A model generated the notes under the pieces. The model was not told the DNA's origin. It searched no databases and saw only the letters and a program-made list of their open reading frames with translations. A DNA stretch of 64,000 bases, taken from Allofournierella massiliensis (GTDB taxonomy: Bacteria; Bacillota; Clostridia; Oscillospirales; Ruminococcaceae). Location: assembly GCF_004345265.1 (NCBI RefSeq), contig NZ_SLUM01000019.1:1-64000 (forward strand), in the 5' to 3' direction. Positions 1,973-25,750 of the stretch are shown in pieces. Numbering within the stretch: the stretch's first letter is position 1; every line of letters begins with the position of its first letter. A program made the position numbers and the translations under genes.

Positions 1973-1988
1973 GTTAGTTCAAACTAAC
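1973..1988. promoter_or_regulatory. DtxR-type operator (iron box A)
   Basis: GTTAGTTCAAACTAAC is a perfect palindrome in the leader of the minus-strand dtxR-like gene. It matches the 16-bp consensus GTTAGYnnnnRCTAAC found at nine other places in the window. Confidence 0.75.
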
Positions 1989-2006
1989 ATCAAGGCAAAA
2001 GCAATG

Positions 2007-2022
2007 GTTAGCATTGGCTAAC
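2007..2022. promoter_or_regulatory. DtxR-type operator (iron box B)
   Basis: GTTAGCATTGGCTAAC, with perfect 6-bp arms, begins 7 bases after the -10 of the dtxR promoter. A bound dimer would block transcription initiation. Confidence 0.8.
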
Positions 2023-2029
2023 TATTGCC

Positions 2030-2058
2030 ATGGTATCATTTCTCCATATGACTGTCAA
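2030..2058 (-). promoter_or_regulatory. Sigma-A promoter of dtxR-like gene
   Basis: Read on the minus strand: TTGACA (2058-2053), 17-base spacer, TACCAT (2035-2030), followed immediately by iron boxes B and A. Confidence 0.75.
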
Positions 2059-2130
2059 AGCGAAAGCTAGTCTTTTATATTAAGATACAGATATGTTTTC
2101 TCTTCGGGTTCTTGTTGTGATCTTTCTAAG

Positions 2131-2171
2131 AAAAGCTGCGGCTCCCCCTATTGGAGAACCGCAGCTTTTTG
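2131..2171. terminator. Terminator of the feo operon
   Basis: AAAAGCTGCGG and CCGCAGCTTTT form a strong stem with A and T runs at the two ends, so it could work in both directions. It lies 8 bases after the stop of the FeoB-associated gene. Confidence 0.85.
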
Positions 2172-2178
2172 TCCTGTA

Positions 2179-2355
2179 TTACTTATGTTTATGCGCGCCG
2201 CAGCTGCAATGGGAACCATTCTTTTTTGCATTGCATGCCGAACAGCCATCCGGACACCCAATACATTTCTTTCCGCTTTTTTTTGCTTTGTAAACATAAA
2301 AAGCTGCTGCTGCAACAATCACCAAAATGATTGCGATTAAAATGTAATCAATCAT
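2179..2355 (-). CDS. FeoB-associated Cys-rich membrane protein
   Basis: A 58-residue protein starts with a hydrophobic segment (residues 4-22, Ile/Val/Ala-rich) and continues into a basic stretch and a cysteine-rich tail with motifs CIGCPDGCSAC and HCSCGAHKH. This is the layout of the FeoB-associated Cys-rich membrane protein family, found downstream of feoB in many Firmicutes and thought to be the counterpart of FeoC. Its ATG overlaps the feoB stop by one base (TAATG), showing translational coupling. The Cys/His tail probably faces the cytosol and binds iron, but its role in transport is inferred from position only. It is the last gene before the operon terminator. Confidence 0.9.
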   Translation of the reverse strand: MIDYILIAIILVIVAAAAFYVYKAKKSGKKCIGCPDGCSACNAKKNGSHCSCGAHKHK

Positions 2356-4361
2356 TACGCATTTGCTCCACTCAGCGCATATTCACGCTTCAGGTCCTTC
2401 TCAGTCTTCGTGCACAGATAAACCAGTACAGCAGCAAAAGCAACCACTGCAACCAAACCAGGGATAAAGCCTACGCCCACCGAACCAGTGGTAATCAGGG
2501 TACCGATTTGGTATACGAGATAGCCCACAGTATAACCGGTACCCAGCTGCAGACCGATGCCAGCCCAAAGCCACTTGGCGCTCTTCATCTCAGAATTCAT
2601 GGCACCAATGGCGGCAAAGCAGGGAGGCGTGTACAGATTGAACATCAGATAGGCCAAGGCAGCAACCTTTGTAATAGCGATAACACCTGCTACCTCAGCG
2701 CCGGCACCTTCCATCATTTCCAGAGCATCGGTGTCGATAAGGTTCTCCAGACCAACAAAGCAAACAGCCAGAGTACCAACCACGTTCTCCTTGGCGATGA
2801 AACCAGTGACGGCCGCGGCAGCCAGCTGCCAGCTGAGGACACCGACAATGGGCACCAGCAGGTATGCAAAGGGATGGGCAATGGAAGCCAGAATAGAGCT
2901 ATCAGCGGTCTCTGCTACCTGGAAGCTCCAGTTGAAGGTCTGCATAATCTGCACGGCAGTATTGCACAGCAGGATGATCGTGGCAGCCTTTACGATGTAG
3001 GCCCAGCCCCGGGCACACATAGCTTTCAGGGCAAAGAGCAGAGAGGGAACTTTATACTCGGGCAGCTCGATGATGAAGAAAGACTTGCGGTTCTTGTAAC
3101 CGGCAATTTTGTTGACCAGCAGAGCACCCAGGAAAATCAGAACGATGCCGGTGAAGTACATGGTAAAACTCACCCAGCCCGCATCGTCAAAGAATGCGCC
3201 GGCAAAAAGGGCGATCACGGGGATCTTTGCGCCGCAGGGCATGAAAGGAGTCAGCATAGCGGTAGCACGGCGCTCACGCTCGTTGCGGATGGTACGGCTG
3301 GCCATAACGCCGGGGATGGCACAACCAGTACCGATAACAAAGGGAATGACCGATTTGCCGGAAAGACCTACCTTTTTGAAGATGGGGTCCAGAACCACCG
3401 AAACGCGGGACATATAGCCGCAGTCCTCCAGCAGCGCGATCAGGAAATACATGATCATAACCAGAGGCAGGAAGCCCACGACAGCGCCCACACCGCCGAT
3501 GATGCCGTCGGCCAGCAGCGCGGTCAGCAGAGGATTGGCGTCAGCCAGCAGCACCTCGCCGACGTAGCCCTGGAAGGTCTCGATCCAGGCCACCAGCGTG
3601 TCCGCAATCAGCGGACCCACCCAGACCTGCGAGATCTGAAACACCAGGAACATGACCACGGCAAAGATGGGAATGCCCAGGAACTTGTTGGTCAGCACGG
3701 CGTCAATGGCGTCCCCCGTGCCCTTGTCCTTGGTGAGGACCTTCCGCTTCTCCACCTGGGAGACCAGGGAATTGACAAACGCGAAACGCTTACGGTCGGC
3801 TTCCTCCACAACCTTCTTGTCAGTCAGATCAATGTCGCCCTGGACATAAGGAGCTCTTTGGATTTTACCGCTTTGTGCAACAGCGGCATCCACTACGGCC
3901 TTCAGCCCTTCCGCGGCGGTGGAGACGGTCTCTACCACGGGACAGCCCAGTTTGGCAGAGAGAGACGCTACATCAATGACGGTCTGCTTTTTTGCATTGA
4001 TATCGCTCTTGTTCAGGGCGACCACCACGGGGATGCCCAATTCCAGCAGCTGAGTCGTGAAAAACAGGCTGCGGCTCAAGTTCGTGGCATCCACAATATT
4101 GATAATAACATCCGGATGCTCGTTCCGCACATAAGAACTGGTAATACTCTCTTCAGAAGTAAAGGGTGACATGGAGTAGGCACCGGGCAGATCCACCGCA
4201 ATCAGTTCTTCGGTACCGCTGAAATACGCTTTCTTAATGGGATGTTCCTTCTTTTCTACCGTAACACCAGCCCAGTTGCCCACCTTTTCATTTCGCCCAG
4301 TCAGAGCGTTGTACATGGTGGTCTTGCCGGAGTTCGGGTTGCCGGTTAAGGCAATACGCAT
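2355..4361 (-). CDS. feoB: Ferrous iron transport protein FeoB
   Basis: FeoB imports Fe(II) across the cytoplasmic membrane. The 668-residue protein has the N-terminal G domain with G1 GNPNSGKTT at 7-15, G2 Thr34, G3 DLPG at 57-60 and G4 NKSD at 117-120. A helical linker follows, then a C-terminal membrane domain with two Gate regions; the conserved Cys motif GTGCAIPGVMASRT is visible. It is shorter than the E. coli protein but normal for Firmicutes. The ATG follows GAGGAGG. It is preceded by feoA and followed with one-base overlap by the Cys-rich gene. A separate iron box lies 51 bases upstream of the start, in the feoA-feoB gap, in addition to those at the feoA promoter. Confidence 0.98.
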   Translation of the reverse strand: MRIALTGNPNSGKTTMYNALTGRNEKVGNWAGVTVEKKEHPIKKAYFSGTEELIAVDLPGAYSMSPFTSEESITSSYVRNEHPDVIINIVDATNLSRSLFFTTQLLELGIPVVVALNKSDINAKKQTVIDVASLSAKLGCPVVETVSTAAEGLKAVVDAAVAQSGKIQRAPYVQGDIDLTDKKVVEEADRKRFAFVNSLVSQVEKRKVLTKDKGTGDAIDAVLTNKFLGIPIFAVVMFLVFQISQVWVGPLIADTLVAWIETFQGYVGEVLLADANPLLTALLADGIIGGVGAVVGFLPLVMIMYFLIALLEDCGYMSRVSVVLDPIFKKVGLSGKSVIPFVIGTGCAIPGVMASRTIRNERERRATAMLTPFMPCGAKIPVIALFAGAFFDDAGWVSFTMYFTGIVLIFLGALLVNKIAGYKNRKSFFIIELPEYKVPSLLFALKAMCARGWAYIVKAATIILLCNTAVQIMQTFNWSFQVAETADSSILASIAHPFAYLLVPIVGVLSWQLAAAAVTGFIAKENVVGTLAVCFVGLENLIDTDALEMMEGAGAEVAGVIAITKVAALAYLMFNLYTPPCFAAIGAMNSEMKSAKWLWAGIGLQLGTGYTVGYLVYQIGTLITTGSVGVGFIPGLVAVVAFAAVLVYLCTKTEKDLKREYALSGANA

Positions 4362-4412: not shown

Positions 4413-4428
4413 GTTGTCTTATGCTAAC
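4413..4428. promoter_or_regulatory. DtxR-type operator between feoA and feoB
   Basis: On the minus strand this reads GTTAGCATAAGACAAC. One half-site is perfect and the other has one change. It is almost the same as the box before feoA (GTTAGCATAAAGCAAC). No good -35/-10 pair is obvious next to it, so it may act as a roadblock or control an internal promoter. Confidence 0.55.
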
Positions 4429-4475: not shown

Positions 4476-4688
4476 TCAGATTAGAATTGCCTCGGCCAGT
4501 TGATTATCGATATTGTAGCGCCCGTCTTTAATAGAAACAACGCAGCCACCTTTCAAGTGGGAGATCACCGTAATCGGCTCTCCTTCATAGCACCCAAGAG
4601 AAAATAAAAACGCGTTCAATTCCTCATCATCCGTATTAATTTGCCGGACGAAATACTCTTTTCCTTCCAAGGCATCTTTCAAAGTCAT
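4476..4688 (-). CDS. feoA: Ferrous iron transport protein FeoA
   Basis: A 70-residue SH3-like FeoA protein, a cytosolic partner that modulates FeoB. The family pattern is visible: an N-terminal strand before a helix with LNAFLFSLGCYEGEPITVISH, then the two-strand turn around GGCVVSIKDGRYNIDNQLAEAI. I chose the ATG at 4688 because AGGTGAGA lies at a suitable distance; a GTG three codons upstream (4697) is the alternative. It is the first gene of the operon feoA-feoB-Cys-rich gene. Two iron boxes and a consensus-like promoter lie directly upstream. Confidence 0.92.
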   Translation of the reverse strand: MTLKDALEGKEYFVRQINTDDEELNAFLFSLGCYEGEPITVISHLKGGCVVSIKDGRYNIDNQLAEAILI

Positions 4689-4714
4689 TCTTCTCACCTA
4701 TCATCAAAATATCA

Positions 4715-4730
4715 GTTAGCATAAAGCAAC
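4715..4730. promoter_or_regulatory. DtxR-type operator before feoA (proximal)
   Basis: GTTAGCATAAAGCAAC matches the consensus GTTAGYnnnnRCTAAC with one changed base in the second arm. It sits 26 bases before the feoA ATG. Confidence 0.65.
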
Positions 4731-4749: not shown

Positions 4750-4765
4750 GTTAGCATCTTCTAAT
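4750..4765. promoter_or_regulatory. DtxR-type operator before feoA (distal)
   Basis: GTTAGCATCTTCTAAT lies 11 bases after the -10 of the feo promoter. One arm is perfect and the other is imperfect. Confidence 0.65.
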
Positions 4766-4812: not shown

Positions 4813-4872
4813 TCAAAACAAATTTCGACGAATCAAAACAACATGAATTTCGACGAATCAAAACAACATGAA
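4813..4872. repeat. 25-bp tandem repeat, about 2.4 copies
   Basis: The unit AATTTCGACGAATCAAAACA plus ACATG occurs twice head to tail, with partial copies at both sides. It lies between the divergent feo and second dtxR-like promoters, just upstream of the feo -35. Confidence 0.8.
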
Positions 4873-4944: not shown

Positions 4945-5331
4945 ATGGCGATTCATGAATCCGGTCAAATGTATCTGGAGACGATTTATATTCTCTCAAA
5001 AACAAAAAGCCTTGTGCGCGCCATTGATGTTGGGGAGCATTTGGAATACTCGAAACCCAGCGTCAGCAGAGCTCTGTCCATTCTGAAGAAAGACGGATAT
5101 GTTCTGGTGGATTCAGATGGTGCAATCAAATTGACGAAAACCGGTCTGGAGATTGCGCAAACGATGTACACACGTCATACCGTCCTTTCTGAGATGCTGA
5201 TGCGCTTGGGTGTAGATGAAAAAACAGCAACGGAAGATGCATGTCGAATCGAGCATGTGATCAGTGCAGCGTCCTTTTCTGCAATTCAGCAACACGTGAA
5301 GCAGTCTTTGGAAAAAAAGGCGAAGGAATAG
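4945..5331 (+). CDS. DtxR/MntR family metal-dependent repressor (second copy)
   Basis: A 128-residue winged-helix regulator with the DtxR/MntR arrangement: helix-turn-helix about residues 10-65 (YLETIYILSKTKSLVRAIDVGEHLEYSKPSVSRAL) and a metal-binding helical region (HTVLSEMLMRLGVDEKTATEDACRIEHVISAASF). I chose the ATG at 4945, which follows AGGGGGG, rather than an upstream in-frame ATG without a ribosome site. It differs clearly from the other DtxR-like protein 3 kb to the left, so the two are not a recent duplication. It is divergent from feoAB. One of the two may sense manganese and the other iron; the sequence does not decide which binds the GTTAG boxes. Confidence 0.88.
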   Translation: MAIHESGQMYLETIYILSKTKSLVRAIDVGEHLEYSKPSVSRALSILKKDGYVLVDSDGAIKLTKTGLEIAQTMYTRHTVLSEMLMRLGVDEKTATEDACRIEHVISAASFSAIQQHVKQSLEKKAKE

Positions 5332-6023: not shown

Positions 6024-6029
6024 AATAAT

Positions 6030-8958: not shown

Positions 8959-8974
8959 GTTAGTCGTGCCTAAC
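8959..8974. promoter_or_regulatory. DtxR-type operator of zupT
   Basis: GTTAGTCGTGCCTAAC begins 8 bases after the -10. Both 5-bp arms are perfect. Confidence 0.75.
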
Positions 8975-8994: not shown

Positions 8995-9798
8995 TTGGAT
9001 CATACCGTTTTACTCGCCCTTTTTCTTACGCTGCTAGCTGGACTTAGTACCGGAATCGGCAGCTGCATCGCATTTCTCAGCCGACACACCAATCGCAAGT
9101 TCTTGTCGATTTCTCTGGGCTTCTCTGCTGGTGTCATGATTTACGTCTCATTGATCGAGATATTTTTCAAAGCACAGGATGCGCTGATCACCGAGATGGG
9201 CACTCGACTAGGCAGCTGGATAACGGTTGCAGCTTTTTTTGGCGGTATGCTGGTGATTGCGATAATCGACAAACTGATTCCAGCTGCAGAAAATCCACAC
9301 GAAGTAAGACTCATGGAGGACTCGGAGACGGGTTCCATACAGCCTGAGCGTTTGATGCGTATGGGTGTTTTCACTGCGCTTGCAATCGCTATACACAACT
9401 TCCCGGAAGGCCTTGCCACATTCGTTTCGGCTTTGCAGGAACCAAAAGTAGCCATCCCCATTGTTGTAGCCATTGCAATTCATAATATTCCCGAGGGAAT
9501 CGCAGTGTCCGTTCCCATTTATCAGGCCACAGGTTCACGGCAAAAGGCCTTTTATTATTCTTTCCTTTCAGGACTCGCAGAGCCCTTAGGCGCTCTTCTT
9601 GGCTGGCTGGTTCTGTGCCCCGTTATGAGTGCCTCTGTATTTGGGATCCTGTTTGCCGGCGTAGCAGGTATCATGGTGTTTATTTCCTTTGATGAACTTC
9701 TTCCGGCTGCCCGGGAATATGGCGAGCACCATCTATCTCTCTACGGTCTTATTTCAGGCATGGTCGTTATGGCGATCAGTCTATTACTGTTTTTGTAA
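8995..9798 (+). CDS. zupT: ZIP family metal transporter (ZupT-like)
   Basis: A 267-residue, eight-helix importer of divalent metals. The two signature helices are visible: [11 protein letters not shown] (helix 4) and [12 protein letters not shown] (helix 5), whose His, Asn and Glu residues form the metal site. The length equals E. coli ZupT. The start is TTG, 9 bases after GAAGGAGG. An iron box and strong promoter precede it, so in this organism it probably brings in Fe(II), perhaps with other metals; ZupT proteins are known to accept zinc, iron and manganese. No partner gene follows closely. Confidence 0.93.
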
Positions 9799-11107: not shown

Positions 11108-11123
11108 GTTAGCAATAGGCAAC
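11108..11123. promoter_or_regulatory. DtxR-type operator of the ATC-hydrolase-like operon
   Basis: GTTAGCAATAGGCAAC begins 8 bases after the -10. One arm is perfect and the other has one change, the same change as in the feoA box. Confidence 0.7.
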
Positions 11124-11172: not shown

Positions 11173-11892
11173 ATGCACGCGTATTATCAAAAAAGCAAGA
11201 ATAAGCTCCAGCGGGAAATGAACAATTATCTGAAACTTATCAAGCCTGAACTGGAGGAGATTTTCCGAAAGCCTTATCCCCAGATTTTCGCTGAGGTTTG
11301 GGAGTATTACGAGCAGGAGATGCTGGAGCATTTTCCTTTTATCGGCGGCGACAGAAGCAGCGGCACCAAAAATCTAACTGGCTGTATGTTCTTTATTGCC
11401 ATTGGTGTTGTGGGAAAACGATACGGTCTCTCCATCCAAGACTGGGGACGTTTGTCCACCATCCTCTATGAGCGGTACTTTGACAGAGTTCCCCGACCGT
11501 TGCGCCGGCTGATTGGCGGAGTGTTCAACCATTGCCCCGGTCTTGTCAACAATGCCTTGCGTCGAAAAGACAGAAAGAATGCGGAAAACGCCGCAAGAAA
11601 TCCAGGAGGCTTTGTAACACAGACCATGCCCCCCACAGAAGAATACCCCGTCATCTATCACAACCAGGTTTGCCCCATCTATGAGTTTTGCAAAGCGAGA
11701 GACTACATGGAGTATCTGCCTTACATGTGCAATCTGGACTATGTAATGTTCCATGCCTTTGGTGTTGCTCTATACCGGGAAAAAACCTGTGCAACCGGAG
11801 ATGACGTGTGCGACTTCAAGATGAAGCGGGGTGCAACGCCCCCTGCTGTGTGGCCTCCGCATATTTTAGATGAATCTGATCCACTGAAATGA
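11173..11892 (+). CDS. L-2-amino-thiazoline-4-carboxylate hydrolase-like protein
   Basis: A 239-residue protein resembling the ATC hydrolase family (PF14196), named for an enzyme that opens the thiazoline ring of L-2-amino-thiazoline-4-carboxylate to N-carbamoyl-cysteine. The central region (YPVIYHNQVCPIYEFCKARDYMEYLPYMCNLDYVMFHAFGVALYREKTCATGDDVCDFKMKRG) holds the family's conserved Cys and Asp residues. Most Clostridial members have no tested substrate. The ATG follows GGAGG. It is the first gene after an iron box, with small membrane proteins, a methyltransferase and a hydrolase downstream. A role in making or breaking a thiazoline-containing or otherwise small metabolite under low iron is possible, but inferred. 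Confidence 0.8.
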   Translation: MHAYYQKSKNKLQREMNNYLKLIKPELEEIFRKPYPQIFAEVWEYYEQEMLEHFPFIGGDRSSGTKNLTGCMFFIAIGVVGKRYGLSIQDWGRLSTILYERYFDRVPRPLRRLIGGVFNHCPGLVNNALRRKDRKNAENAARNPGGFVTQTMPPTEEYPVIYHNQVCPIYEFCKARDYMEYLPYMCNLDYVMFHAFGVALYREKTCATGDDVCDFKMKRGATPPAVWPPHILDESDPLK

Positions 11893-16259: not shown

Positions 16260-17042
16260 TCAGATCGTCAGAACAATCCGACGCTCCTGCGCTTCTACTG
16301 TTTCCAGTTCTACACCATAGACTCGTTTCAAAACCGGTTTAGATATCACATCTTCCGGAACTCCTTGCGCTACCAGATCTCCTTGTGGAGACAACGCCAC
16401 AATTTCATCGCTGTAGTTGACGGCCTGATTGATATCATGCAGAACCATAATAATCGTCATTCCAAGTTTTTCATTCAACTGACGCACCAAGCGTAGAATT
16501 TGCAGTTGATAACGCACATCCAAAAAGGTGGTTGGTTCATCCAGAAACAGCACCTTGGTTCCCTGTGCAAGTGCCATGGCGATCCATACGCGCTGCCTTT
16601 GACCGCCAGACAATGCATACACCGGTTTTTTTCGAAGTGAGGTTATCCCTGTAATTTTCATCGCCCGTTCAATCATTTTCTCGTCATTTTCCCGTGATTC
16701 GGCTTTGCCTAAATAACTGAAGGGGATTCTCCCATAAGCCACCAGCTGCTCCACAAGGATATCTCCGGGTGCGGTATTGTTTTGGTGTACAATGGCAACT
16801 TTACGTGCAAACTGCTTCAGACCGATCTGGTCAAGTTGCTGCCCATTCAGAAAAATTTTTCCACCGGTTGCTTTCAGATTTTTCGTCAAAATCTGGAACA
16901 GCGTGGATTTTCCACAGCCATTTCCTCCCAATATTGTGGTAATTTTCCCCTGTGGCAGCGAGAGATTGAGATCCCGGAAAATCTGCTTATTCCCATAAGA
17001 AAAATTCAAATGTCTTATTTCAAAGCAATCATTATTTTCCAT
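16260..17042 (-). CDS. Heme/siderophore ABC transporter ATP-binding protein
   Basis: A 260-residue ABC ATPase of the FecE/FhuC group that energises import. Walker A is GGNGCGKST at 39-47, the Q-loop is VHQNN, the signature is LSGGQRQRVWIAMALAQG and Walker B is VLFLDEPTTFLDV, with a following switch His (VLHDINQ). It overlaps the permease gene by 11 bases. With the permease and lipoprotein it forms a complete importer. The heme-binding-like surface proteins upstream indicate that heme is the cargo; a siderophore is the alternative. Confidence 0.93.
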   Translation of the reverse strand: MENNDCFEIRHLNFSYGNKQIFRDLNLSLPQGKITTILGGNGCGKSTLFQILTKNLKATGGKIFLNGQQLDQIGLKQFARKVAIVHQNNTAPGDILVEQLVAYGRIPFSYLGKAESRENDEKMIERAMKITGITSLRKKPVYALSGGQRQRVWIAMALAQGTKVLFLDEPTTFLDVRYQLQILRLVRQLNEKLGMTIIMVLHDINQAVNYSDEIVALSPQGDLVAQGVPEDVISKPVLKRVYGVELETVEAQERRIVLTI

Positions 17043-18042
17043 GAATCATACCACTCCTTTGCAGCAGAATTACGAATGCAATACCACCCGCCACCGACAT
17101 AATGATGGATGCACTGATTTCATACGGATAAGCAATACTCCGCCCCAGTGTATCTGCCAGCAAAAAGCAAAATGCTCCCAGAAGCATTGTGAAGGGAATC
17201 AGTTTACGGTGATCGCTTCCCACAATGATTCGCCCAATATGCGGCGCAATCAGTCCCAGAAAGCTCACCGTTCCCACAATAGCTGTGCATCCGCTTACCA
17301 AAAACACTGCTATCAGACTCACCAACATCCGAACTTTGTCAACCTGTATTCCCAGACCTCGAACCGTCTTATCTTCCAATGCCAGTAGATTGCACCACCG
17401 GCTGCACACAATAGCCAGAATCAATCCCAGAAGGCTGAAAAAGGCCAGTATCCGAACATCCTGCCAGGTTTTCATGGTGATATTCCCATTGACAATAGAA
17501 GCTACCGTCGATGTGGTTCCACTGCTTGTTGCACCAAATGCAGCAGACAATCCCCCGAACAAAGACTGTACTGCAACGCCCAGCAAAATAATACGCAACG
17601 GAGAAAGCCTGCCTGTCCACGCCAGGCGATATACGACAACGAAGGCAAGAATTCCTCCCAGAAAGCTGAATGCCGGCACAAAACTATAAAGTTGTGGAAC
17701 CAAGGCTGTTGCCAAAACTGCCGCAAACTCTGCCCCGCTGGCAACACCCAAAATTCCCGGATCTGCCAAAGGGTTACGCAAAACGGCCTGAAACAGCGTT
17801 CCCGCTGCCGCCAGAGTAGCTCCTGCCATCAGTGAAATGAGGATGCGCGGAAATCTCAGATCATATACAGCTGCCACATCAGGGTCGTATTCCACAAACA
17901 GACCATTCCAAAGCTGTGCAATTCCCAGGTGAATGCTGCCTGTATTGACCGCTGCAAAAAACAGGAACAGCAGTGCTGTTGCCAGTACTCCAAAACTGAC
18001 ACAAAACATTCCGGCTGACCTGACTTTCACCGTATGTCTCAT
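17032..18042 (-). CDS. FecCD family iron/heme ABC transporter permease
   Basis: A 336-residue permease of the FecCD/BtuC family with about ten membrane helices. Typical blocks are visible: RFPRILISLMAGATLAAAGTLFQAVLRNPLADPGILGVASGAEFAA near the N-terminus, GTVSFLGLIAPHIGRIIVG in the ATPase-coupling loop, and a final DTLGRSIAYPYEISASIIMSVAGG region. It overlaps the genes on both sides (4 and 11 bases), so expression is tightly coupled. A single permease gene means a homodimer, as in BtuC and IsdF. Confidence 0.94.
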   Translation of the reverse strand: MRHTVKVRSAGMFCVSFGVLATALLFLFFAAVNTGSIHLGIAQLWNGLFVEYDPDVAAVYDLRFPRILISLMAGATLAAAGTLFQAVLRNPLADPGILGVASGAEFAAVLATALVPQLYSFVPAFSFLGGILAFVVVYRLAWTGRLSPLRIILLGVAVQSLFGGLSAAFGATSSGTTSTVASIVNGNITMKTWQDVRILAFFSLLGLILAIVCSRWCNLLALEDKTVRGLGIQVDKVRMLVSLIAVFLVSGCTAIVGTVSFLGLIAPHIGRIIVGSDHRKLIPFTMLLGAFCFLLADTLGRSIAYPYEISASIIMSVAGGIAFVILLQRSGMIHGK

Positions 18043-18965
18043 CCTGTTTCGCCTCCTTCTAACTGCTTTATATCCAAATCAGACTGATAAAAAAGCTGAT
18101 CCAGGTGTTCAAGCGCTTGCGGATATTCAAATGTCGCACTCATGCCAAACAATCCGGACGGCAGATCATACACCTGCCCTTTTTCCACAGCGCGAAAATG
18201 CTGCCAGATATCATTTGTTGCAAATTCTTCCGCAAACATTTCCATAACAGATTCCGGCAGAGCATGTGCCGTACGCAGAATAATGTCTGGGTCCCGGGCT
18301 AACATATCCTCTGTATTCACATTGATAAACTCGGCATCTTCCCCCGCATACACATTGATACCGCCGGCCATTTGAACCAGACTACCTACATAAGAATTCT
18401 CCGTAGCTACCACATAGGACCCTGGTAGCCCCATCAAAATCAATACTCTGGGCGCACTTTTATCCTGATGTTCTGAGGAATACTCTGTATAGTATTCCTC
18501 AAACTCTTCAATCATCGCTGCCGCCTGCTCCTCACGATCCAGCAGCAGCCCCAATTCCTCAATCGACTTATACATTCCAAATACGCTTTTGAGGTTCAGG
18601 AAGGCATATTGAAACCCTGCCGCTTCGTATTTCGGCTGAAGATCACTGATCAGACTGGACGGGCTAAGAACCCAGGAGGGGGAAAGCTGCTTAAGAATCT
18701 CCAGGTCCGGGCTCATTGGTGACCCCAGTTCTACCGCTTGTGCATATCTCTCCGGGATAGTTGTCAAACTTGTTGTGGGCACCCCAACAAGATCCAAATC
18801 AAGCCGCTCACATATCTCCATGCATGCCACACTTGTAGCAGCGATTCTACCGCTCGTTCTATCTGTATCTGCAGCTGAACCGCCGCTTTGATCCACGCAG
18901 GACGAAAAAAGGAGCGTCGTCATCAATGCTGCCATAACCGGCAAAAATTTTCGCTTATTCCTCAT
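18039..18965 (-). CDS. Heme/iron ABC transporter substrate-binding lipoprotein (IsdE/FecB-like)
   Basis: A 308-residue lipoprotein of the TroA-like helical-backbone class. I chose the ATG at 18965, which gives a signal peptide ending in the lipobox LFSSC; it overlaps the previous stop. The fold is seen in RIAATSVACMEICERLDLDLVGVPTTS at the start of the first lobe and in LILMGLPGSYVVATENSYVGSLVQMAGGINVY in the second. Comparable IsdE-type proteins bind heme with Met and His; candidate ligands here cannot be fixed by eye. It receives cargo from the surface proteins encoded just upstream. Confidence 0.9.
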   Translation of the reverse strand: MRNKRKFLPVMAALMTTLLFSSCVDQSGGSAADTDRTSGRIAATSVACMEICERLDLDLVGVPTTSLTTIPERYAQAVELGSPMSPDLEILKQLSPSWVLSPSSLISDLQPKYEAAGFQYAFLNLKSVFGMYKSIEELGLLLDREEQAAAMIEEFEEYYTEYSSEHQDKSAPRVLILMGLPGSYVVATENSYVGSLVQMAGGINVYAGEDAEFINVNTEDMLARDPDIILRTAHALPESVMEMFAEEFATNDIWQHFRAVEKGQVYDLPSGLFGMSATFEYPQALEHLDQLFYQSDLDIKQLEGGETG

Positions 18966-19824
18966 TGTTCCAATCATCCAATTCAATTACGGAATCAAAG
19001 TCATCCTCTGCGGAATGTTCTGCAAAGTTTTCCTCTGGGTCTACCGGCCTTTTTTTGTAATGCACCAGCATCCAATATACGGCCAGCAGCAAGCCGCCTG
19101 CGAGAAAAGCCGCAACGAACACCACTACAAATAGTGTGAACCAGGCGCTGACATCCAGAGAAATTGTTGTTTTCGTATTGTCTGCCGCAGTTTCAGATTC
19201 TTCGTCTCCGGCTGCCAATGCTGCGCTGCCTCCTGTTGTCAGCCCCTGTACTTTCTCCAAAAGCTGACTTCCACCTTCATTCACTTGCTGCGTGTCTTCT
19301 TCGCTCATCGGAACGAACCCGCCGGTATTTCCTTCCTCCCAATCATCAACGGTGATGTAGAAAATAACACTGCGTCCCATTGCCTCCACATAGCACTCTG
19401 CCCGCAGAATCGCATCCCGGCCCGGAACTTTGACACGGTAGTCTGCTGTATCTTCTCCTTGTGCCGTACATACAGCTTCTCCATCCGTCCAGGTGGAATC
19501 GCCCGGAGATTGAACCTGAATACTTACAGAGGAAATATTGCTCATCAGTCCAAATCGAAGGGATATATACTGATTCCCCGACTCATCTGTTTCCAGCATT
19601 GCCTGAGAAGTTACCACACTCCCCACCATGGATTGCCCCAGCGCCTCGCTGGCTTCTCCCCCCGAATCCTCAATGACTCCTGTTTCGGGGTGGCGATAGC
19701 TGCCATGTGCTGTACCACTTTCAAAGGTCAGGCTGTCTGCCCAGGCTCGTACCGAAAATGTCACGAGCAGGCAGATCAGCAAGGCAATTCCAACAATACT
19801 TTTCGCCTGTTTGCTCAGTTTCAT
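18955..19824 (-). CDS. Membrane-anchored Shp/NEAT-like heme-binding protein
   Basis: A 289-residue surface protein: signal peptide (1-29, cleaved after RAWA), an extracellular beta domain (about 30-165), a linker, a membrane helix (about 228-253) and an acidic cytosolic tail. The beta domain (GQSMVGSVVTSQAMLETDESGNQYISLRFGLMSN and AECYVEAMGRSVIFYITVDDW) follows the order of the NEAT-like domains in the two genes upstream and resembles the Shp group, where two Met residues hold heme. The many Met residues here fit that. It overlaps the large surface protein by ATGA. Its likely job is to pass heme to the lipoprotein. Confidence 0.7.
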   Translation of the reverse strand: MKLSKQAKSIVGIALLICLLVTFSVRAWADSLTFESGTAHGSYRHPETGVIEDSGGEASEALGQSMVGSVVTSQAMLETDESGNQYISLRFGLMSNISSVSIQVQSPGDSTWTDGEAVCTAQGEDTADYRVKVPGRDAILRAECYVEAMGRSVIFYITVDDWEEGNTGGFVPMSEEDTQQVNEGGSQLLEKVQGLTTGGSAALAAGDEESETAADNTKTTISLDVSAWFTLFVVVFVAAFLAGGLLLAVYWMLVHYKKRPVDPEENFAEHSAEDDFDSVIELDDWNNEE

Positions 19825-22800
19825 TTCATTCTCCTCTTATACCATACATATCCGGCTGCGCACCCGGCACCACAAAGAACGATCACCATACAAATCGCAG
19901 CCGGTATTGCAGCACTGCTGTGGAAAAGAATTTCGGATATCTCCTTTGCTGCATTGCCCACTACAGAAATTGCTCCACCTGCTTCGTTTTCATCCAAATT
20001 TGCACCAGAATTGCTGTTGCTGCTTTCAACATATTCATCGGCCGGTTTCATTGACTCGAAATCCAGCAGAAGACGCGCTTTTACCTCTATGCTCATTGCA
20101 TTGATGTACATTGTCATCAGCATAGGTGATTCCAGCGTATTGTTGTCAAATGCAAATGCGAAACTATCATAGTCGATGCCATCTTTGGTCAGTGCATTTT
20201 CTTTCTTCGTGGCTTGAATCCCATTATATTTTATATATTTGGGTCCGCCCCCTTCGATTCCAGCAACAGTATGTTGGATATAAATCGTCAGTGTGGCCTT
20301 TCCGTCTGTAACCACGATATCCGCATCAGGCAGCATATAATCCGCCATCATGCTGGCTTCGTCGCTGGCTTCTTTAACGGCCGTAACTGGAAGACGATAT
20401 TCTCCATCCTCCAACTGTTCACTGGTGATCGCCTGCGTCGAGAAACTTCCGTTGCCTGCCTCAATCGTTCCACTGGTTGCACTCGGCGTCGGGGTAGGTG
20501 TTGCAGATACCTGTGCCGAGGTAGTGCTTCCCGAAGCGAAGTCCGACAGTACCACATAGAAGGTCTGTGTGCTCTTCATTACCGCATTTACATATGCCTG
20601 ACACTTCAGTGTTTGATTTGAAGAGTTGGTTATCGCCTGTGTGGACACAGTGACTGTTATGATCGTGGTAGGATAATTTCCGGCGCTGCTGATAAACGCG
20701 CTGTTCGCATCAAAATGGTAATACGGATCGCTGGTGGTATCCAGTGTCGCGGAATACTGTTTCCCCGCGTTATCAATAAATACAACATCCCTCAGCGGAG
20801 TACCTTCCGATGCATAATTGGGAATCGGATCGATTACATACAGCTTTAATTTTGCAGTATCGCCATCCACCGCTATGTCAGCGTAATTATAGAACAGCGG
20901 ATCACACATGCTTTCACTGGAGAAATTGGTGCCATTACGCATAGAAGCTTTCGCTGTATAATTGCCATTCTCCAATGTACCATTTGGCACCGGTGTGGTG
21001 GTGGGTGCCGGGCTGGCAGTGGGAAGCGGACTGGCAGTAGGTGTTGGAGTGGTAGTGGGAGTCGGTGTTTGCTCAGAGTCAGTGCTTCCCGATGTAAAGT
21101 CAGACAACACCACATAGAAGGTCTGCGTAGTATTCATCACTGCATCTACATAAGCCTGGCATTTCAACGTCTGATTTTCAGATTCGCTCACCGCCTGTGT
21201 GGGTACATTAACCGTTATGATCGTAGTGGGGTAATTTCCGGCGCTGCTGATAAACGCGCTGTTCGCATCAAAATGGTAATATGGATCGCTGGTGGTATCC
21301 AGTGTCGCGGAATACTGTTTCCCCGCGTTATCAATAAATACAACATCCTTCAACGGAGTGCCTTCCGATGCGTAATTGGGAATCGGATCGATTACATACA
21401 GCTTTAATTTTGCAGTATCGCCATCTACCGCTATATCAGCATAGCTATAGAACAACGGATCACACATGCTTTCACTGGAGAAATTAGTGCCATTGCGCAT
21501 CGACACCTTGGCCGTATAATTTCCATCCGACAGCATACCTCCTGGTGTAGAAGTAGGCTTAACAGTAGGTACTGGGGTGGCGGTAGGTGCAGTCGTCGGT
21601 TTAGGTGTCGCCGTAGGAGCCACAGTAGGTATGGGGGTGGGTGTCACTGTTGTCCCTTCCGTTTTCTTAAACATCCAGGTCGAGAATTTGTTGGTATAGA
21701 TGTAAACCGCGTCGTTTTCTCGATCCAGATAGTATGTTCCATCCCTGAAATCCGTAACCGGCCGACCGTTTTCTGTGATTTCTTCAAACTCTGTTACCAC
21801 ATCATTATGCAATCGCCAAACCTGTAACTCCCCGTCTGCTTCCAACGGATAATCTAGTTTTACTTCCAGTACAATGTCTTCCTCGCTATTATCGCCATAT
21901 TCAAACCTGTTCCAGTTGTCCTCCAACTGGGTGCCATCCTCGCTGTACTTCTTATATTGTAACGACAAGTCCAGAAAATCTGCTCCGCCTGCATCAACTC
22001 CGGCCCGTTCAGCCAGTTCCTGTGCTTCTTCCGAATCACTTGCCAGCTCTGATGCAGAAAACGCATAATGCTTTCCTGTATTTTGAGCCTCCTCTTGCTT
22101 ATGAGCCAGCTGATCCAATCCGTAAATTGTCGCACCGGTCACGGTATCACCGGAAACAATGCCAATTTCCTGACTTGTATTGTATTCCTGCTCATTCCCC
22201 TGATACTCGATTACAAAGTTCAAGGTACCAGTATAATTTCCCTCCTGTGCTGCGGCCACATCTTCCGCCATCACGGAGATTCTGCCAGTGGATTGCTGAC
22301 TGTATTCCGTCAGACGAGCCCACTGCAAGGAGTTGTAGCTGTTCAATTTCTGCCCTTGCTCTGTCGCAAGCACTGCAGTTGCAGCTGCTGTTACCCGGAT
22401 GCTGCCTCCTTGCAAATCTTTCCCTCCACTTAGGGATACTGTATAATCCACAGCGGTATTGTGCACCGGACTCAGTTCCCCTAAGGTAGTAGCCGCCGGA
22501 ATCGTCACGCTATAATCAGAGGTCTTCGGCGCAACCACGGCATTCAAATCCGTACCTTCCATCACAATTTCCCACTGCTCTTCCGCTGCATTGGGACTAA
22601 TCGAGTCACTATCATCCGGATTAAATTCTTTTGCGACAGGTTCTTCCGTTTGTATCGGAGTCCCACCCTGCTCTTGCGGATTTTGTTTTTCAGATGCAGA
22701 CGGCACAGATACTTCTTGCTTGGCCAGGTCCTCAGCACCCTGTTGTTCGTTCGAATCGGTCGGCTCCGGTACAACCGTTTGCTGCAAAGAATCCCTTTCA

Positions 22801-22988
22801 TCGCTTTGCGCCGTTTTCACCGTTTCGGATGATGACCGCTGAGATTCCAAAGACTCATCTTCTTCCATTATCAAGGCTTCGCCACCGGAAACAGGCAGGT
22901 CCTGTTCCGCAGCAAAGGTCGGCAAAGCGTTTCCCCACGCGATCAGCCCCGCCAACATGATTGCTGTTATACGATGTAGCAATTTCAT
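19821..22988 (-). CDS. Large multi-domain NEAT-like heme-capture surface protein
   Basis: About 1055 residues: signal peptide ending near PTFAA, a Glu/Gln/Ser-rich region, a beta module with YSVTIPAATTLGELS shared with the small secreted protein upstream, an uncharacterised domain, Thr/Pro-rich linkers, two nearly identical NEAT-like domains (each with SESMCDPLF and CQAYV...TQTFYVVLSDF), a third more classical NEAT-like domain (DGEYRLP, ASMMADYMLPDADIVVTDGKATL) and a C-terminal membrane helix with a short basic tail. There is no LPXTG. NEAT domains bind heme through a 3-10 helix containing S and M and usually a Tyr on strand 8; that Tyr is not obvious here. The start (ATG 22988, GAGG before it) could also be 23003. 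Confidence 0.78.
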   Translation of the reverse strand: MKLLHRITAIMLAGLIAWGNALPTFAAEQDLPVSGGEALIMEEDESLESQRSSSETVKTAQSDERDSLQQTVVPEPTDSNEQQGAEDLAKQEVSVPSASEKQNPQEQGGTPIQTEEPVAKEFNPDDSDSISPNAAEEQWEIVMEGTDLNAVVAPKTSDYSVTIPAATTLGELSPVHNTAVDYTVSLSGGKDLQGGSIRVTAAATAVLATEQGQKLNSYNSLQWARLTEYSQQSTGRISVMAEDVAAAQEGNYTGTLNFVIEYQGNEQEYNTSQEIGIVSGDTVTGATIYGLDQLAHKQEEAQNTGKHYAFSASELASDSEEAQELAERAGVDAGGADFLDLSLQYKKYSEDGTQLEDNWNRFEYGDNSEEDIVLEVKLDYPLEADGELQVWRLHNDVVTEFEEITENGRPVTDFRDGTYYLDRENDAVYIYTNKFSTWMFKKTEGTTVTPTPIPTVAPTATPKPTTAPTATPVPTVKPTSTPGGMLSDGNYTAKVSMRNGTNFSSESMCDPLFYSYADIAVDGDTAKLKLYVIDPIPNYASEGTPLKDVVFIDNAGKQYSATLDTTSDPYYHFDANSAFISSAGNYPTTIITVNVPTQAVSESENQTLKCQAYVDAVMNTTQTFYVVLSDFTSGSTDSEQTPTPTTTPTPTASPLPTASPAPTTTPVPNGTLENGNYTAKASMRNGTNFSSESMCDPLFYNYADIAVDGDTAKLKLYVIDPIPNYASEGTPLRDVVFIDNAGKQYSATLDTTSDPYYHFDANSAFISSAGNYPTTIITVTVSTQAITNSSNQTLKCQAYVNAVMKSTQTFYVVLSDFASGSTTSAQVSATPTPTPSATSGTIEAGNGSFSTQAITSEQLEDGEYRLPVTAVKEASDEASMMADYMLPDADIVVTDGKATLTIYIQHTVAGIEGGGPKYIKYNGIQATKKENALTKDGIDYDSFAFAFDNNTLESPMLMTMYINAMSIEVKARLLLDFESMKPADEYVESSNSNSGANLDENEAGGAISVVGNAAKEISEILFHSSAAIPAAICMVIVLCGAGCAAGYVWYKRRMK
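20536..20975. repeat. Internal direct repeat, copy 2 (NEAT-like domain)
   Basis: This stretch repeats 21094-21533 with an offset of 558 bases. Around 20,675-20,800 the two copies are almost base-identical, including silent positions, which shows a recent duplication or ongoing gene conversion. Confidence 0.85.
21094..21533. repeat. Internal direct repeat, copy 1 (NEAT-like domain)
   Basis: Partner of the repeat at 20536-20975. It encodes the first of two nearly identical NEAT-like domains. Confidence 0.85.
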
Positions 22989-23072
22989 AAGCATCCTCGC
23001 CATCTTCACAATAAAAGTGGTGGATACCCGCCGACTGTGCAGCGGGTATCCACAGGTCATTAAACTGTTATA

Positions 23073-24017
23073 TTATGCGGCAGCATAGTAATTAATGGTA
23101 AAGTTTGCGGTACCGGTATAATTGCCTGCCGCCGCATTCGCAACATCTGCAGCCTTCACGGTGATCTGACCGGTCAGAGTGCTCTCGGCAGAAGCCTGCT
23201 GCGTACCGAAGCTGTTGGTATAAGAAATGGTATTACCCTCACTGGACAGTTTACCTTCAGCCTCCGCGGAAACCTCGATATAACTGCCCTCGGTCAGATT
23301 GTTTGCGGAAACCTGTACGGAGATATCCTTCACAGTATCCTGCTCAGTGCTCAGTTCGCCCAGTGCAACACTGGCAGGCACGGTGACGCTGTAGGTGGGC
23401 TGTACCGCAACCTGTGCGGTGATTTCCATGCTCTGAGTACTGGTTTCAGTTGCATCAGACCCAGAAGAGGCGGCCTGAAGGTTAGTGATTTTAACCACGA
23501 AATTCTGAGTAGTATTCATGACTACATTCACGAACGCACTGCAGTCGAGCCCTTCTTCAAAGCTGTCCACAGCGGAGCGAGGGAGGGTAAATTTCACCGC
23601 CTGGGTAGACAACTCATCACCCGCATTGATCCCGAACAAAGCGCCAGTGGTATCGAATGTTTTCACCGCTTTTGTAGTGATGTCAGATTCGCCGTTATAG
23701 GTATCTTCTCCAATGGTGATCGTCACATCTTTAATCGTTCCGTCAGTGCCCTGATCCGAGAAAGCAGGAACCGGATACGCCACATAAACAGTCAGCTCCG
23801 CATTGGCATCCGTGAGCACAACATCCGCTTCATGCGCAAAAATAGGATCGCACATGCTATAGTTGGCAGGATTTGAGGCATTGTGGAAATGTACTGTGCC
23901 CTTGTAATCCCCATTTGCAAGGCCGGCATCGGCTGCAAATGCACTGATGCTGCTCATGCTGGCCAACATACCGATAGCCAGCACGGAACTAGCCAGGCGT
24001 TTGAAGTTAAATTTCAT
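23073..24017 (-). CDS. Secreted NEAT-like hemophore candidate
   Basis: A 314-residue exported protein with a clear signal peptide (1-29, SAFAA), a NEAT-like domain (about 33-185; YSMCDPIF, DANAELTVYVAYPVPAF, CSAFVNVVMNTTQNFVVKITNL) and a C-terminal beta module (about 205-312; YSVTVPASVALGELS to YTGTANFTINYYAAA) that recurs in the large protein downstream. There is no membrane helix and no sorting signal after the signal peptide, so it is released or held by protein contact. The shared module may be a docking part. The ATG follows AAAAGGAG. A role in capturing heme outside the cell is inferred from the domain and operon. Confidence 0.72.
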   Translation of the reverse strand: MKFNFKRLASSVLAIGMLASMSSISAFAADAGLANGDYKGTVHFHNASNPANYSMCDPIFAHEADVVLTDANAELTVYVAYPVPAFSDQGTDGTIKDVTITIGEDTYNGESDITTKAVKTFDTTGALFGINAGDELSTQAVKFTLPRSAVDSFEEGLDCSAFVNVVMNTTQNFVVKITNLQAASSGSDATETSTQSMEITAQVAVQPTYSVTVPASVALGELSTEQDTVKDISVQVSANNLTEGSYIEVSAEAEGKLSSEGNTISYTNSFGTQQASAESTLTGQITVKAADVANAAAGNYTGTANFTINYYAAA

Positions 24018-24089
24018 TGTGTCTACACTCCTTTTGATTTGATGGTGGATTTGCGTTTATGATTCAGCGCATTCGCGCAAAACCCATAT

Positions 24090-24557
24090 TCATGTTACCT
24101 TCAGAATACAGTTGACCGTTGCCCCATTTCGAGGGGAATAGGTCTCATCCATGGAAAAGGTATCGTACTGTATCGTCAGCTCATACTCACCTGCTTCCAA
24201 AGCTCTATCCAGCGTAATGTCATACAAATGATCCCCCGGACGTATGAGCTTGGACTGATAGATTTGCTCTTCTCCGATTAAAAATGTGATCTGGAAATAC
24301 ACTTCGTTTTCTTCCGGGTTAGTCAGTTCTATTTGAACATCCGTTGTATCGGCCGGAATTGAAATTGTAGAGTACCCCGGAATTTCAATCCCTTTTTCAG
24401 TGCTTTCCTCGGTTGTTTGCCAGCTCTGCGCCTGTTCAAATTCCGGCACAAAACTTGTAACCTCTTTGGGTCTGGTGTTTTGGTATATTGCTGCAGCTGC
24501 CAAAATCACCGCAACACCAATAAGCACAATGACTTTTGCTCTACATTTTATCCACAT
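24090..24557 (-). CDS. Membrane-anchored Ig-like protein, unknown
   Basis: A 155-residue protein with one N-terminal membrane helix (about 8-26) and an extracellular beta-rich domain (ISIPADTTDVQIELTNPEENEVYFQITFLI and LEAGEYELTIQYDTFSMDETYSPRNGATVNC). The pattern is immunoglobulin-like and resembles small proteins found beside Clostridial surface modules. It is the first gene of the heme operon: its ATG follows AGAGGAAA and two iron boxes lie upstream. It could assist assembly or anchoring of the secreted proteins. No family is claimed. Confidence 0.7.
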   Translation of the reverse strand: MWIKCRAKVIVLIGVAVILAAAAIYQNTRPKEVTSFVPEFEQAQSWQTTEESTEKGIEIPGYSTISIPADTTDVQIELTNPEENEVYFQITFLIGEEQIYQSKLIRPGDHLYDITLDRALEAGEYELTIQYDTFSMDETYSPRNGATVNCILKVT

Positions 24558-24575
24558 ATATATTTCCTCTTTTCA

Positions 24576-24591
24576 GTTAGTATTAGCTAAC
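24576..24591. promoter_or_regulatory. DtxR-type operator of the heme operon (proximal)
   Basis: GTTAGTATTAGCTAAC matches the consensus and lies 19 bases before the first gene of the heme operon. Confidence 0.75.
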
Positions 24592-24656
24592 CATGTGCTC
24601 AAAATAAACCGCCCCTTTTGCAGGCGGTTTCACTGTACGTATACATTTTTTCAATA

Positions 24657-24672
24657 GTTAGTTTAAGCTAAC
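24657..24672. promoter_or_regulatory. DtxR-type operator of the heme operon (distal)
   Basis: GTTAGTTTAAGCTAAC has perfect 5-bp arms. A GC-rich hairpin (AACCGCC/GGCGGTT, 24607-24630) lies between the two operators. Confidence 0.75.
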
Positions 24673-24731
24673 TATCACCTGAAAAAGAAGCGGCTCACGC
24701 CGTTTTCTCAATCATCCTGTTATTTGACTAA

Positions 24732-24760
24732 AGAATAACACCGTTATTTGCCCACGTCAA
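24732..24760 (-). promoter_or_regulatory. Candidate promoter of the heme operon
   Basis: On the minus strand: TTGACG (24760-24755), 17-base spacer, TATTCT (24737-24732). It would start about 170 bases before the first gene. A palindrome shared with the tetR promoter fills the spacer. Confidence 0.55.
24735..24747. promoter_or_regulatory. TetR-type palindrome in the heme promoter
   Basis: ATAACACCGTTAT is the exact reverse complement of the palindrome at 25070-25082 next to tetR. It lies between -35 and -10 of the candidate heme operon promoter. Confidence 0.6.
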
Positions 24761-25029
24761 CACTCTGTCGCTTTTATTATCATAAAGCGATATAATACCA
24801 CAATATTAAAAAATTTTGTTTCTCTTTAAAATACAGTCCAATTTACACAACTACCAAATTATTCCATCACACTTATGTCGATAGTGACAAGTACCATGCC
24901 ATACAATCGTATCAAAATCGGCTCTCTGGAAAAGCAAAATTCATTTCGTTACTTCATCAATATCTCCAACTGTTCACCTGAATCTAAAAGAGATATTTCC
25001 ATAGCACTTGCAGAATGTTTTCGGTCGTC

Positions 25030-25058
25030 TTGACAGCATATTAAAAGAGATGTATTAT
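25030..25058 (+). promoter_or_regulatory. Sigma-A promoter of tetR
   Basis: TTGACA (25030-25035), 17-base spacer, TATTAT (25053-25058). The stretch 24761-25029 is AT-rich and shows no gene. Confidence 0.85.
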
Positions 25059-25069
25059 AGCAGTGTTAC

Positions 25070-25082
25070 ATAACGGTGTTAT
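25070..25082. promoter_or_regulatory. TetR-type palindrome at the tetR start
   Basis: ATAACGGTGTTAT lies at the expected start region of the tetR transcript, immediately before the ribosome site. It fits autorepression. Confidence 0.65.
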
Positions 25083-25094
25083 AAGGAGAATATT

Positions 25095-25712
25095 ATGGAA
25101 GAAAAATCAACTGGCACTCTTGAGAGCATCCAGGAGGCTGCTATGCAAGAATTTCTAGAAAAAGGCTTTCAAGGTGCCTCCCTGCGCCAGATTGTGAAAA
25201 ACGCCGGTGTAACCACTGGTGCTTTCTATGGATATTTCTCCAGCAAAGAAGCTCTTTTCAACGCCCTTGTAGAGCCCCACGCCGTTGCCCTTATGGGAAA
25301 GTTTATGGAAGCCCAATCCTCTTTTGCCGAGTTGCCTGAAGAAGAACAGGCTACTTGCATGGGGAATGCGTCTGGAGCCTGTGTAAGGTGGATGGTGGAT
25401 TATATCTGTCAGCATCGGGAACCGGTTAAACTGCTGCTCTGCAGATCGGAGGGAACCAGTTATGAACACTTTGTCCACAACATGGTAGAAGTGGAGGTGG
25501 AGTATACGCTCCGCTACATGGATGTTCTCCGACGTTTGGGGCAAACTCTTCCGGAACTGAGTCAGTCTCTCTGCCATATCATCGCCAGCGGAATGTTCAA
25601 TGGACTTTTTGAGATCGTCGTACATGATATGCCGAAAGAACAGGCTCTGCGGGATGTAGAACAGTTCCGCACTTTCTACACGGGTGGATGGCTGAAATTG
25701 ATGGGGGGATGA
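25095..25712 (+). CDS. TetR/AcrR family regulator
   Basis: A 205-residue regulator with the TetR N-terminal helix-turn-helix (about 10-55; AAMQEFLEKGFQGASLRQIVKNAGVTTGAFYGYFSSKEALF) and a helical ligand-binding part with several Cys and His. It is divergent from the heme operon and lies upstream of an ABC half-transporter pair in the same direction. A 13-bp palindrome occurs both at its own promoter and in the heme operon promoter, so it probably controls both. By comparison with HrtR and FhtR, TetR-type heme sensors of Firmicutes, heme is the first ligand to test; this is inference. Confidence 0.92.
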   Translation: MEEKSTGTLESIQEAAMQEFLEKGFQGASLRQIVKNAGVTTGAFYGYFSSKEALFNALVEPHAVALMGKFMEAQSSFAELPEEEQATCMGNASGACVRWMVDYICQHREPVKLLLCRSEGTSYEHFVHNMVEVEVEYTLRYMDVLRRLGQTLPELSQSLCHIIASGMFNGLFEIVVHDMPKEQALRDVEQFRTFYTGGWLKLMGG

Positions 25713-25734
25713 CCCCTATCTTTTTTGAATATTA

Positions 25735-25750
25735 GTTAGTTATTGCTAAC
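25735..25750. promoter_or_regulatory. DtxR-type operator of the ABC pair
   Basis: GTTAGTTATTGCTAAC lies between tetR and the first ABC gene, 20 bases before its ATG. No clear -35/-10 pair is seen, so it may act on read-through or on a weak promoter. Confidence 0.7.

Follow-up and report, generated by a model that had tools for sequence, protein, structure and literature searches.

A 16-bp palindrome recurs at ten positions, beside iron, heme and uncharacterised genes, in the first 64,000 nt of contig NZ_SLUM01000019.1 of Allofournierella massiliensis (positions 1-64,000, forward strand; hereafter the window), which raises the question of whether these sites form one regulon and which protein reads them. 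The initial annotation of this DNA proposed a single regulon with a non-classical operator spacing in an organism with two short DtxR proteins. We followed the palindrome through the remainder of the genome (G000; 3.73 Mb in 76 contigs), a second genome of the same genus used for comparison (G025) and wider genome samples, and conclude that it is very probably a switch with which this bacterium and many of its relatives turn off genes for the uptake of iron and heme.

The palindrome has a GTTAG-n6-CTAAC core

As annotated, all ten sites match GTTAGYNNNNRCTAAC with zero to two mismatches. Those at 1973, 2007, 24576, 24657 and 25735 are exact, the site at 8959 has one mismatch and those at 4413, 4715, 4750 and 11108 have two. 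When up to two mismatches were allowed, the window contained 12 matches, compared to 3.86 +/- 1.92 in shuffled versions (largest 9); the two matches outside the original ten, at 1192 and 24175, both lie inside open reading frames. The whole-genome scan that the initial annotation had called for yielded 16 exact matches to GTTAGYNNNNRCTAAC, while the backwards control pattern had no match at all, a result that refutes a chance origin of the exact boxes. Ten further sites in the genome carry a single mismatch (26 matches in total at up to one), and since eight of these ten differ at the Y/R positions, the true core is GTTAG-n6-CTAAC. At up to two mismatches, the genome-wide count of 97 is below the 201 of the control, so that two-mismatch matches alone are background and were rejected as evidence.

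Scored by the core, the site at 8959 becomes perfect, as are those at 1973, 2007, 24576, 24657 and 25735, and the site at 4750 is a variant ending in CTAAT. Seven of the ten sites are hence good boxes, while those at 4413, 4715 and 11108 each retain one perfect half together with a GTTGY half. A pattern derived from these three, GTTGYNNNNNGCTAAC, matches nowhere else in the genome (control 2), and we consider them uncertain, half-degenerate boxes. We then compared loci of 80 relatives, the top 80 among at least 592 loci in named genomes that carry a gene similar to the DtxR-family gene D2 (see below), examined over +-3 kb. These loci contain 27 CTAAT-ending sites, and 172 of their 342 GTTAG words are part of the palindrome, but the right halves GCAAC and ACAAC were found in none of the 342, and were rejected as generally tolerated right halves. 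The spacing is strict: n6 occurs 86 times, whereas every other spacer from 0 to 5 and from 7 to 15 occurs at most once. The base following TTAG is mostly a pyrimidine (C 0.58, T 0.30). Collectively, these data confirm that the palindrome is real.

Boxes accompany iron and heme genes in the window

Two exact boxes precede D1 (1546..1911, minus strand), which encodes an MntR/DtxR-like regulator of 121 aa. The nearer one, GTTAGTTCAAACTAAC (1973..1988), is not conserved in G025, and the one in the D1 promoter, GTTAGCATTGGCTAAC (2007..2022), is absent from the G025 stretch. Farther along lie feoB (2355..4361, minus strand; TIGR00437 above cut-off) and feoA (4476..4697, minus strand; PF04023). The box upstream of feoB (4413..4428) is degenerate, but relatives often have a perfect box at this place: an exact box lies close to the 5' end in 14 of the 44 FeoB open reading frames of the 80 loci, a number that includes fragments. 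The feoA box (4750..4765), a CTAAT variant here, is perfect in G025; a degenerate second feoA box (4715..4730) lies 35 bp from it, and its presence in G025 is uninformative because the flanks are 99% identical. By eye, a small Cys-rich protein is encoded directly after feoB (about 2180-2355, minus strand) and is maybe a Feo accessory protein.

A perfect-core box (8959..8974) precedes the gene for a ZupT-type ZIP transporter (8995..9798, plus strand; NF003243 above cut-off) in a region that is missing from G025. This zupT, together with genes for a heavy-metal P-type ATPase and a CsoR-like protein (both named by eye), belongs to a block (6335-11054) in whose place G025 has about 460 bp; the block looks mobile, although its zupT has a perfect box. 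Another segment of about 253 bp (6027-6279) is missing from G025, where the alignment resumes within 2 bases; it has inverted repeats (by eye) and looks like a small mobile element. The gene for an ATC-hydrolase family protein (11173..11892, plus strand; PF14196) is preceded by a degenerate box (11108..11123) that is retained in G025 with one spacer change, in a surrounding 169-bp block that is just 82% identical.

Two exact boxes, both identical in G025, are associated with a probable, presumably co-transcribed heme-uptake operon (16260..24557, minus strand); one adjoins its start (24576..24591) and the second lies at 24657..24672. The operon encodes an ABC ATPase, a FecCD protein, a binding protein, an Shp heme-binding protein, a NEAT protein and two proteins without family assignment. 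The last box (25735..25750), likewise exact and identical in G025, precedes a gene for an exporter-type ABC protein (25771-27564, plus strand; Pfam), which forms a pair spanning 25771..29323 with a second one identified by eye (27503-29323, plus strand). Among solved structures, the first ABC protein best matches eukaryotic multidrug-type ABC proteins, and its best bacterial matches are importers of yersiniabactin (6p6i/8vsi) and mycobactin (IrtA), a weak hint that it may be a chelate importer. GC content is 0.45-0.49 before 24 kb and reaches 0.515 and then 0.554 in this part of the window (24000-32000), a sign that this DNA may differ in origin.

Boxes are phased with promoters and with each other

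In agreement with the annotated distance of 7-11 bases between a -10 element and the box, the separation is 7 bp for the D1, zupT and ATC-hydrolase genes and 11 bp for feoA (promoter elements assigned by eye). By eye, -35/17/-10 promoters lie upstream of the D1, zupT and ATC-hydrolase boxes, that of D1 reading TTGACA-17-TACCAT. Among 217 distinct boxes pooled from all loci collected, a strong -10 hexamer lies upstream on one side, with its end 6-11 bp from the box, in 76 cases, compared to 18 cases for a window of the same size placed 34 bp farther away, which puts the box near the transcription start as had been proposed. The same set shows further peaks of -10 elements directly behind the box. 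Such an arrangement is consistent with a repressor site.

Boxes also often occur in close pairs. With CTAAT variants allowed, we counted 54 pairs: 23 with a separation of 34-35 bp, 13 of 29-30 bp, 5 of 24-25 bp and 13 with other separations. A Rayleigh test on 53 pairs supports a 5-bp periodicity (p about 2e-6), a value to be read with the period having been picked after seeing the data and with pairs that are not independent and uncorrected for relatedness. Five base pairs is also the distance by which the two dimers on the classical DtxR box are shifted against each other. Pairs at 34-35 bp precede unrelated genes, namely D1, feoA in G055 (C162), DUF2325 genes in G035 and G071 and two ABC-like genes (L029 and L031, named by eye).

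The box marks a probable iron and heme regulon across related genomes

Within a family sample of 119 genomes, we found 370 exact boxes versus 39 control matches, and 94 genomes had at least one box, counts that are inflated by relatedness. Thirteen of the control matches come from a single genome, G044, which has 3 boxes and in which the backwards pattern reflects an unrelated repeat. Genomes with a PF02742 protein had a mean of 3.45 boxes (n = 105), compared to 0.57 in the 14 genomes without (p 1e-5); the exact Y/R box is missing from 15 of the 105, and 4 of the 14 have 1-3 boxes. One of the latter, G083 (97% complete), has 3 boxes, two Fur-family genes and no PF02742 match. In a phylum-wide sample, 94 of 299 genomes had any exact match. 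By eye, nine other genomes of the same order or class gave 15 (G187), 13 (G364) and 7 (G260) boxes and 0-1 in the remaining six, and scattered genomes showed an excess (G185, 8; G258, 5; G159, 4). With a clear excess in three of nine genomes of its own order or class, class-wide or phylum-wide occurrence was not upheld.

Beyond the window, the boxes of the A. massiliensis genome lie in front of genes for AraC-type regulators, Trep_Strep/CbiQ/ABC operons, exporter-type ABC genes, a second feoA-feoA-feoB cluster, methyltransferase genes and two DUF3793 genes. At C14 4.6-5.1 kb and C50 6.1-7.2 kb, FeoA and DUF3793 replaced the gene assignments based on the longest open frame. For other genomes, a candidate gene was present for 50 of 63 distinct boxes, and 50 of 60 candidate proteins starting within 300 bp of a box were scanned, with ten short or doubtful open reading frames omitted. 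They included 9 ABC_tran, 8 FeoB, 6 FeoA, 3 DUF2325 and 2 DUF3793 proteins, as well as one enolase, one PFL-like protein and one NAD synthase, which may be chance neighbours.

Conversely, in nine genomes chosen for having many boxes, a box lies within 700 bp upstream of 22 of 32 FeoA, 8 of 10 DUF3793 and 4 of 4 DUF2325 genes, at a chance expectation of about 0.003 per gene. In this count, ten one-mismatch boxes and the site at 4750 were also allowed for G000, two of the nine boxes of G035 were unlisted, making the misses of that genome upper bounds, and the two DUF families had been selected after the box-near scan, partly in the same genomes. DUF3793 was found in none of 14 control genomes. 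The comparison with iron genes of related genomes bore out the annotated link, and the "unknown genes" of the network now include DUF3793 and, in relatives, DUF2325 as recurrent members, which the earlier account had left incomplete.

D2-type proteins are the likely binders

The genome encodes six PF02742 proteins rather than the two short DtxR proteins initially annotated, whereas the description as short and lacking SH3 holds. Three of the six, D1, D2 and C12:73855, are encoded within ~0.4 kb of a box and the other three 2.7-6.7 kb from one. D2 (4945..5331, plus strand) is a DtxR-family regulator of 128 aa with PF01325 and PF02742 domains and no SH3 domain (Pfam scan run from a start at 4885). 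Its structural model (pLDDT 92.1) has no room for a third domain, and its nearest structures are MntR, DtxR and IdeR, with MntR D8M as the top match. Thus, judged by both Pfam and the model, the SH3-like third domain of classical DtxR/IdeR proteins is missing. At ligand positions D2 has M9, E12, H78, C100, E103 and H104, and M9, C100, E103 and H104 correspond to the primary-site ligands of DtxR/IdeR, which we take to be Met10, Cys102, Glu105 and His106. Presumably, MntR binds manganese through Asp8 and Glu99, where D2 has M9 and C100, and D2 scores below the cut-offs of NF008273 and NF003025.

We aligned D2-like proteins in a set of 81 rows (98 in the wider comparison), from which we excluded the closest matches to D1, proteins not between 115 and 150 aa long and matches weaker than 1e-25. 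E12, H78, C100, E103 and H104 are invariant in all 81, position 9 is Asp in 35, Asn in 29 and Met in 17, and the recognition helix reads [ST]K[PA]SVS, mostly followed by R-A. Four G000 paralogues have helices of this type. The 80 loci, retained as the best from at least 592, belong mostly to Lachnospiraceae, Oscillospiraceae, Ruminococcus and unspecified Clostridia, with one Coriobacteriales MAG, and the closest D2 relative among them is from Anaeromassilibacillus sp. An200 (78%). Of the 86 boxes in these loci, 53 are located upstream of the D2-like gene at a distance of up to 300 bp, and feo or DUF3793 genes occur within +-3 kb of that gene in 38 of 43 boxed loci compared to 4 of 37 unboxed ones (p 7e-13). 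In the family sample, an exact core box in the 250 bp upstream was found for just 17 of the 95 distinct DtxR-family proteins. No box was seen in the promoter of D2 itself, the nearest being that of feoA. Upstream of D2 lies a perfect 25-bp tandem repeat of 2.1 copies (4821-4873). Going by the feo and DUF3793 neighbourhood of boxed loci, D2-type proteins, and not D1, are the likely binders. The window also contains a Fur-family gene (44543-44869, plus strand).

The box has the spacing of half a classical DtxR box and the core of the EqbA operator

The annotated resemblance to the DtxR/IdeR box was borne out, but the spacing is not a different, non-classical one: n6 is that of the single-dimer half of this box. 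On the 19-bp box TTAGGTTAGSCTAACCTAA, one IdeR dimer occupies repeats 1+3 and another repeats 2+4, so that each dimer reads TTAG-n6-CTAA, and a half-site of n6 spacing binds one dimer with a similar Kd (78 nM) (PMC8464063, PMC10317159). A 2023 review lists the role of one-dimer IdeR half-sites as open (PMC10317159). The present system shares the TTAG-n6-CTAA single-dimer geometry and, in D2, the Met/Cys ligands with IdeR/DtxR. It differs in the mostly pyrimidine base after TTAG, which is G in IdeR/DtxR boxes, in the lack of an SH3 domain in D2 and in the near absence of an overlapping second unit. One that agrees in at least 7 of 8 letters at offset 5 accompanies just 2 of 217 boxes, which led us to reject a 19-bp DtxR box for two offset dimers.

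The closest precedent is EqbA, encoded on ICESe2 of the horse pathogen Streptococcus equi. EqbA is a short, SH3-less DtxR-like protein with Cys104, its operator at eqbB, in front of a siderophore NRPS operon, is a 36-bp palindrome with the centre GTTAGATGTATCTAAC, and binding in vitro is stimulated by Fe2+ and Zn2+ and to a lesser degree by Mn2+; its authors describe the site as unlike other iron boxes and EqbA as likely a new subclass (PMC3672683). The authors name Asn13 as one difference between EqbA and DtxR (PMC3672683); the residue does not clearly define the subclass. The operator centre and our box have the identical core GTTAG-n6-CTAAC, and D2, like EqbA, consists of a wHTH and a dimerisation domain without SH3 and has Cys at the DtxR C102 position. 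In contrast to EqbA, D2 has Met in place of Asn13, the shared box does not extend into the outer portion of the 36-bp palindrome, and the one EqbA operator described there stands against many boxes across genomes here, mainly at feo, heme and transporter genes.

A second example is plasmid pAPRE01 of Anaerococcus prevotii, on which an EqbA-type regulator 41.7% identical to D2 is encoded beside an NRPS operon, with GTTAGCCAATACTAAC between the two, just past a TATAAT. Of six D2-like plasmid loci examined, this was the only one with a box. The operon (L252, NC_013164.1) is equibactin-like and lies near class III lanthipeptide genes on a plasmid typed as conjugative. The E. coli K-12 mntH promoter reads AAACATAGCCTTTGCTATGTTT, a palindrome that we take to be a site of MntR, presumably a manganese regulator. 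This has the TAG-n6-CTA spacing seen here but different outer bases (CATAG/CTATG), and a second TAGC-n4-GCTA occurs inside the mntH coding region. No paper was retrieved when the literature was searched for the MntR box string. B. subtilis MntR has an SH3-less dimer fold like that of D2 but, unlike the present system, 18-bp sites 1 bp apart and a response to manganese; in its recognition helix, a Pro contacts thymine (PMC11275975). Its counterpart, as inferred from the alignment, would be P38, present in 69 of 81 rows.

Other readings of the box

That the sites are chance palindromes or hairpins unrelated to regulation has a negligible probability: the background level of two-mismatch matches would suit this reading, but the 16 exact matches against none, the spacer specificity, the promoter phasing and the target families contradict it. 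Recognition by a Fur-family protein is highly improbable. All 11 genomes inspected for such genes have them, and G083 is boxed without a PF02742 match, but boxes are few in genomes without PF02742, though the three such genomes checked have Fur-family genes, and the box geometry agrees with that of DtxR/IdeR, EqbA and the mntH palindrome. We also consider it unlikely that D1 binds the boxes in response to manganese while D2 does something else. The two exact boxes in its promoter, MntR as its best NCBIfam match (below cut-off) and, by eye, Asp at the MntR D8 position speak for D1; however, its close relatives were found in G000 and G025 alone among the proteins compared, yet boxes occur in 94 of 119 genomes, the D1 boxes are not conserved in G025, D1 has Cys rather than Glu at the C102 position (by eye), and the box targets are iron and heme genes. 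Because its recognition helix is unlike that of D2 (by eye) and G025 lacks the D1 boxes, D1 is probably a target rather than a binder.

Several of the six DtxR paralogues may share the box with different metals, so that the network would integrate Fe, Mn and Zn instead of forming a simple iron regulon, which we regard as a possible if doubtful extension compatible with D2 as a binder. The D2-type helices of the four paralogues, ZupT among the targets and the in vitro response of EqbA to Fe2+, Zn2+ and Mn2+ would favour sharing, and the five paralogues could share or divide boxes with D2. Against this, genomes with a single PF02742 match, such as G017 and G035 with nine boxes each, are box-rich too, so that one regulator suffices there.

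A model for iron and heme control

Based on the IdeR geometry, the mntH palindrome, EqbA, the A. prevotii locus and the D2 model, we propose, with a probability of about 0.8, that GTTAG-n6-CTAAC is the operator of an EqbA-like, SH3-less, Cys-type, Fe(II)-dependent DtxR repressor of the D2 clade that would control an iron/heme regulon. Box enrichment, spacing, -10 proximity, target families, the neighbourhood of regulator and box and the metal-ligand residues were directly observed. Iron is favoured over manganese as the signal because of Met9/Cys100 and the target genes. A single dimer of a D2-type protein loaded with Fe(II) would occupy each box, in many cases covering the transcription start or lying next to the -10 element, and block feoAB, heme and other transporter genes, zupT, and the genes for AraC regulators and small DUF proteins. 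Once iron becomes scarce, the repressor would leave the box and the genes would be switched on. Each box would represent the single-dimer half of a classical DtxR box, and two boxes 22-36 bp apart may give stronger control. We infer Fe(II) as the signal, D2 as the binder, repression and cooperativity. Of the original regulon reading, one iron/heme regulon with, very probably, a DtxR-family binder stands; its spacing, the number of regulators and the role of D1 have been revised.

The binder family, the geometry and one operator, in S. equi, were already known. A search of open-access literature found, among the matches listed, no account of a DtxR regulon or box shared by gut Clostridia, and as far as found in such text the family-wide half-box regulon, its DUF members and the spacing ladder would be new. 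We tentatively suggest, as a reading that is somewhat less probable than even, that a large clade of gut Clostridia runs a global iron and heme regulon on single-dimer half-boxes read by an SH3-less, Cys-type DtxR, that a half-turn ladder of two-box spacings (~24/25, 29/30, 34/35 bp) tunes the response and that DUF3793 and DUF2325 are new iron-homeostasis proteins. If true, a large group of gut bacteria would gain a searchable iron box, and DUF3793, DUF2325, the ABC pairs and the gene neighbours of NEAT/Shp would be tied to iron. With a whole regulon seemingly built of half-sites, the question of IdeR half-sites, as posed in the review, would become testable (PMC10317159).
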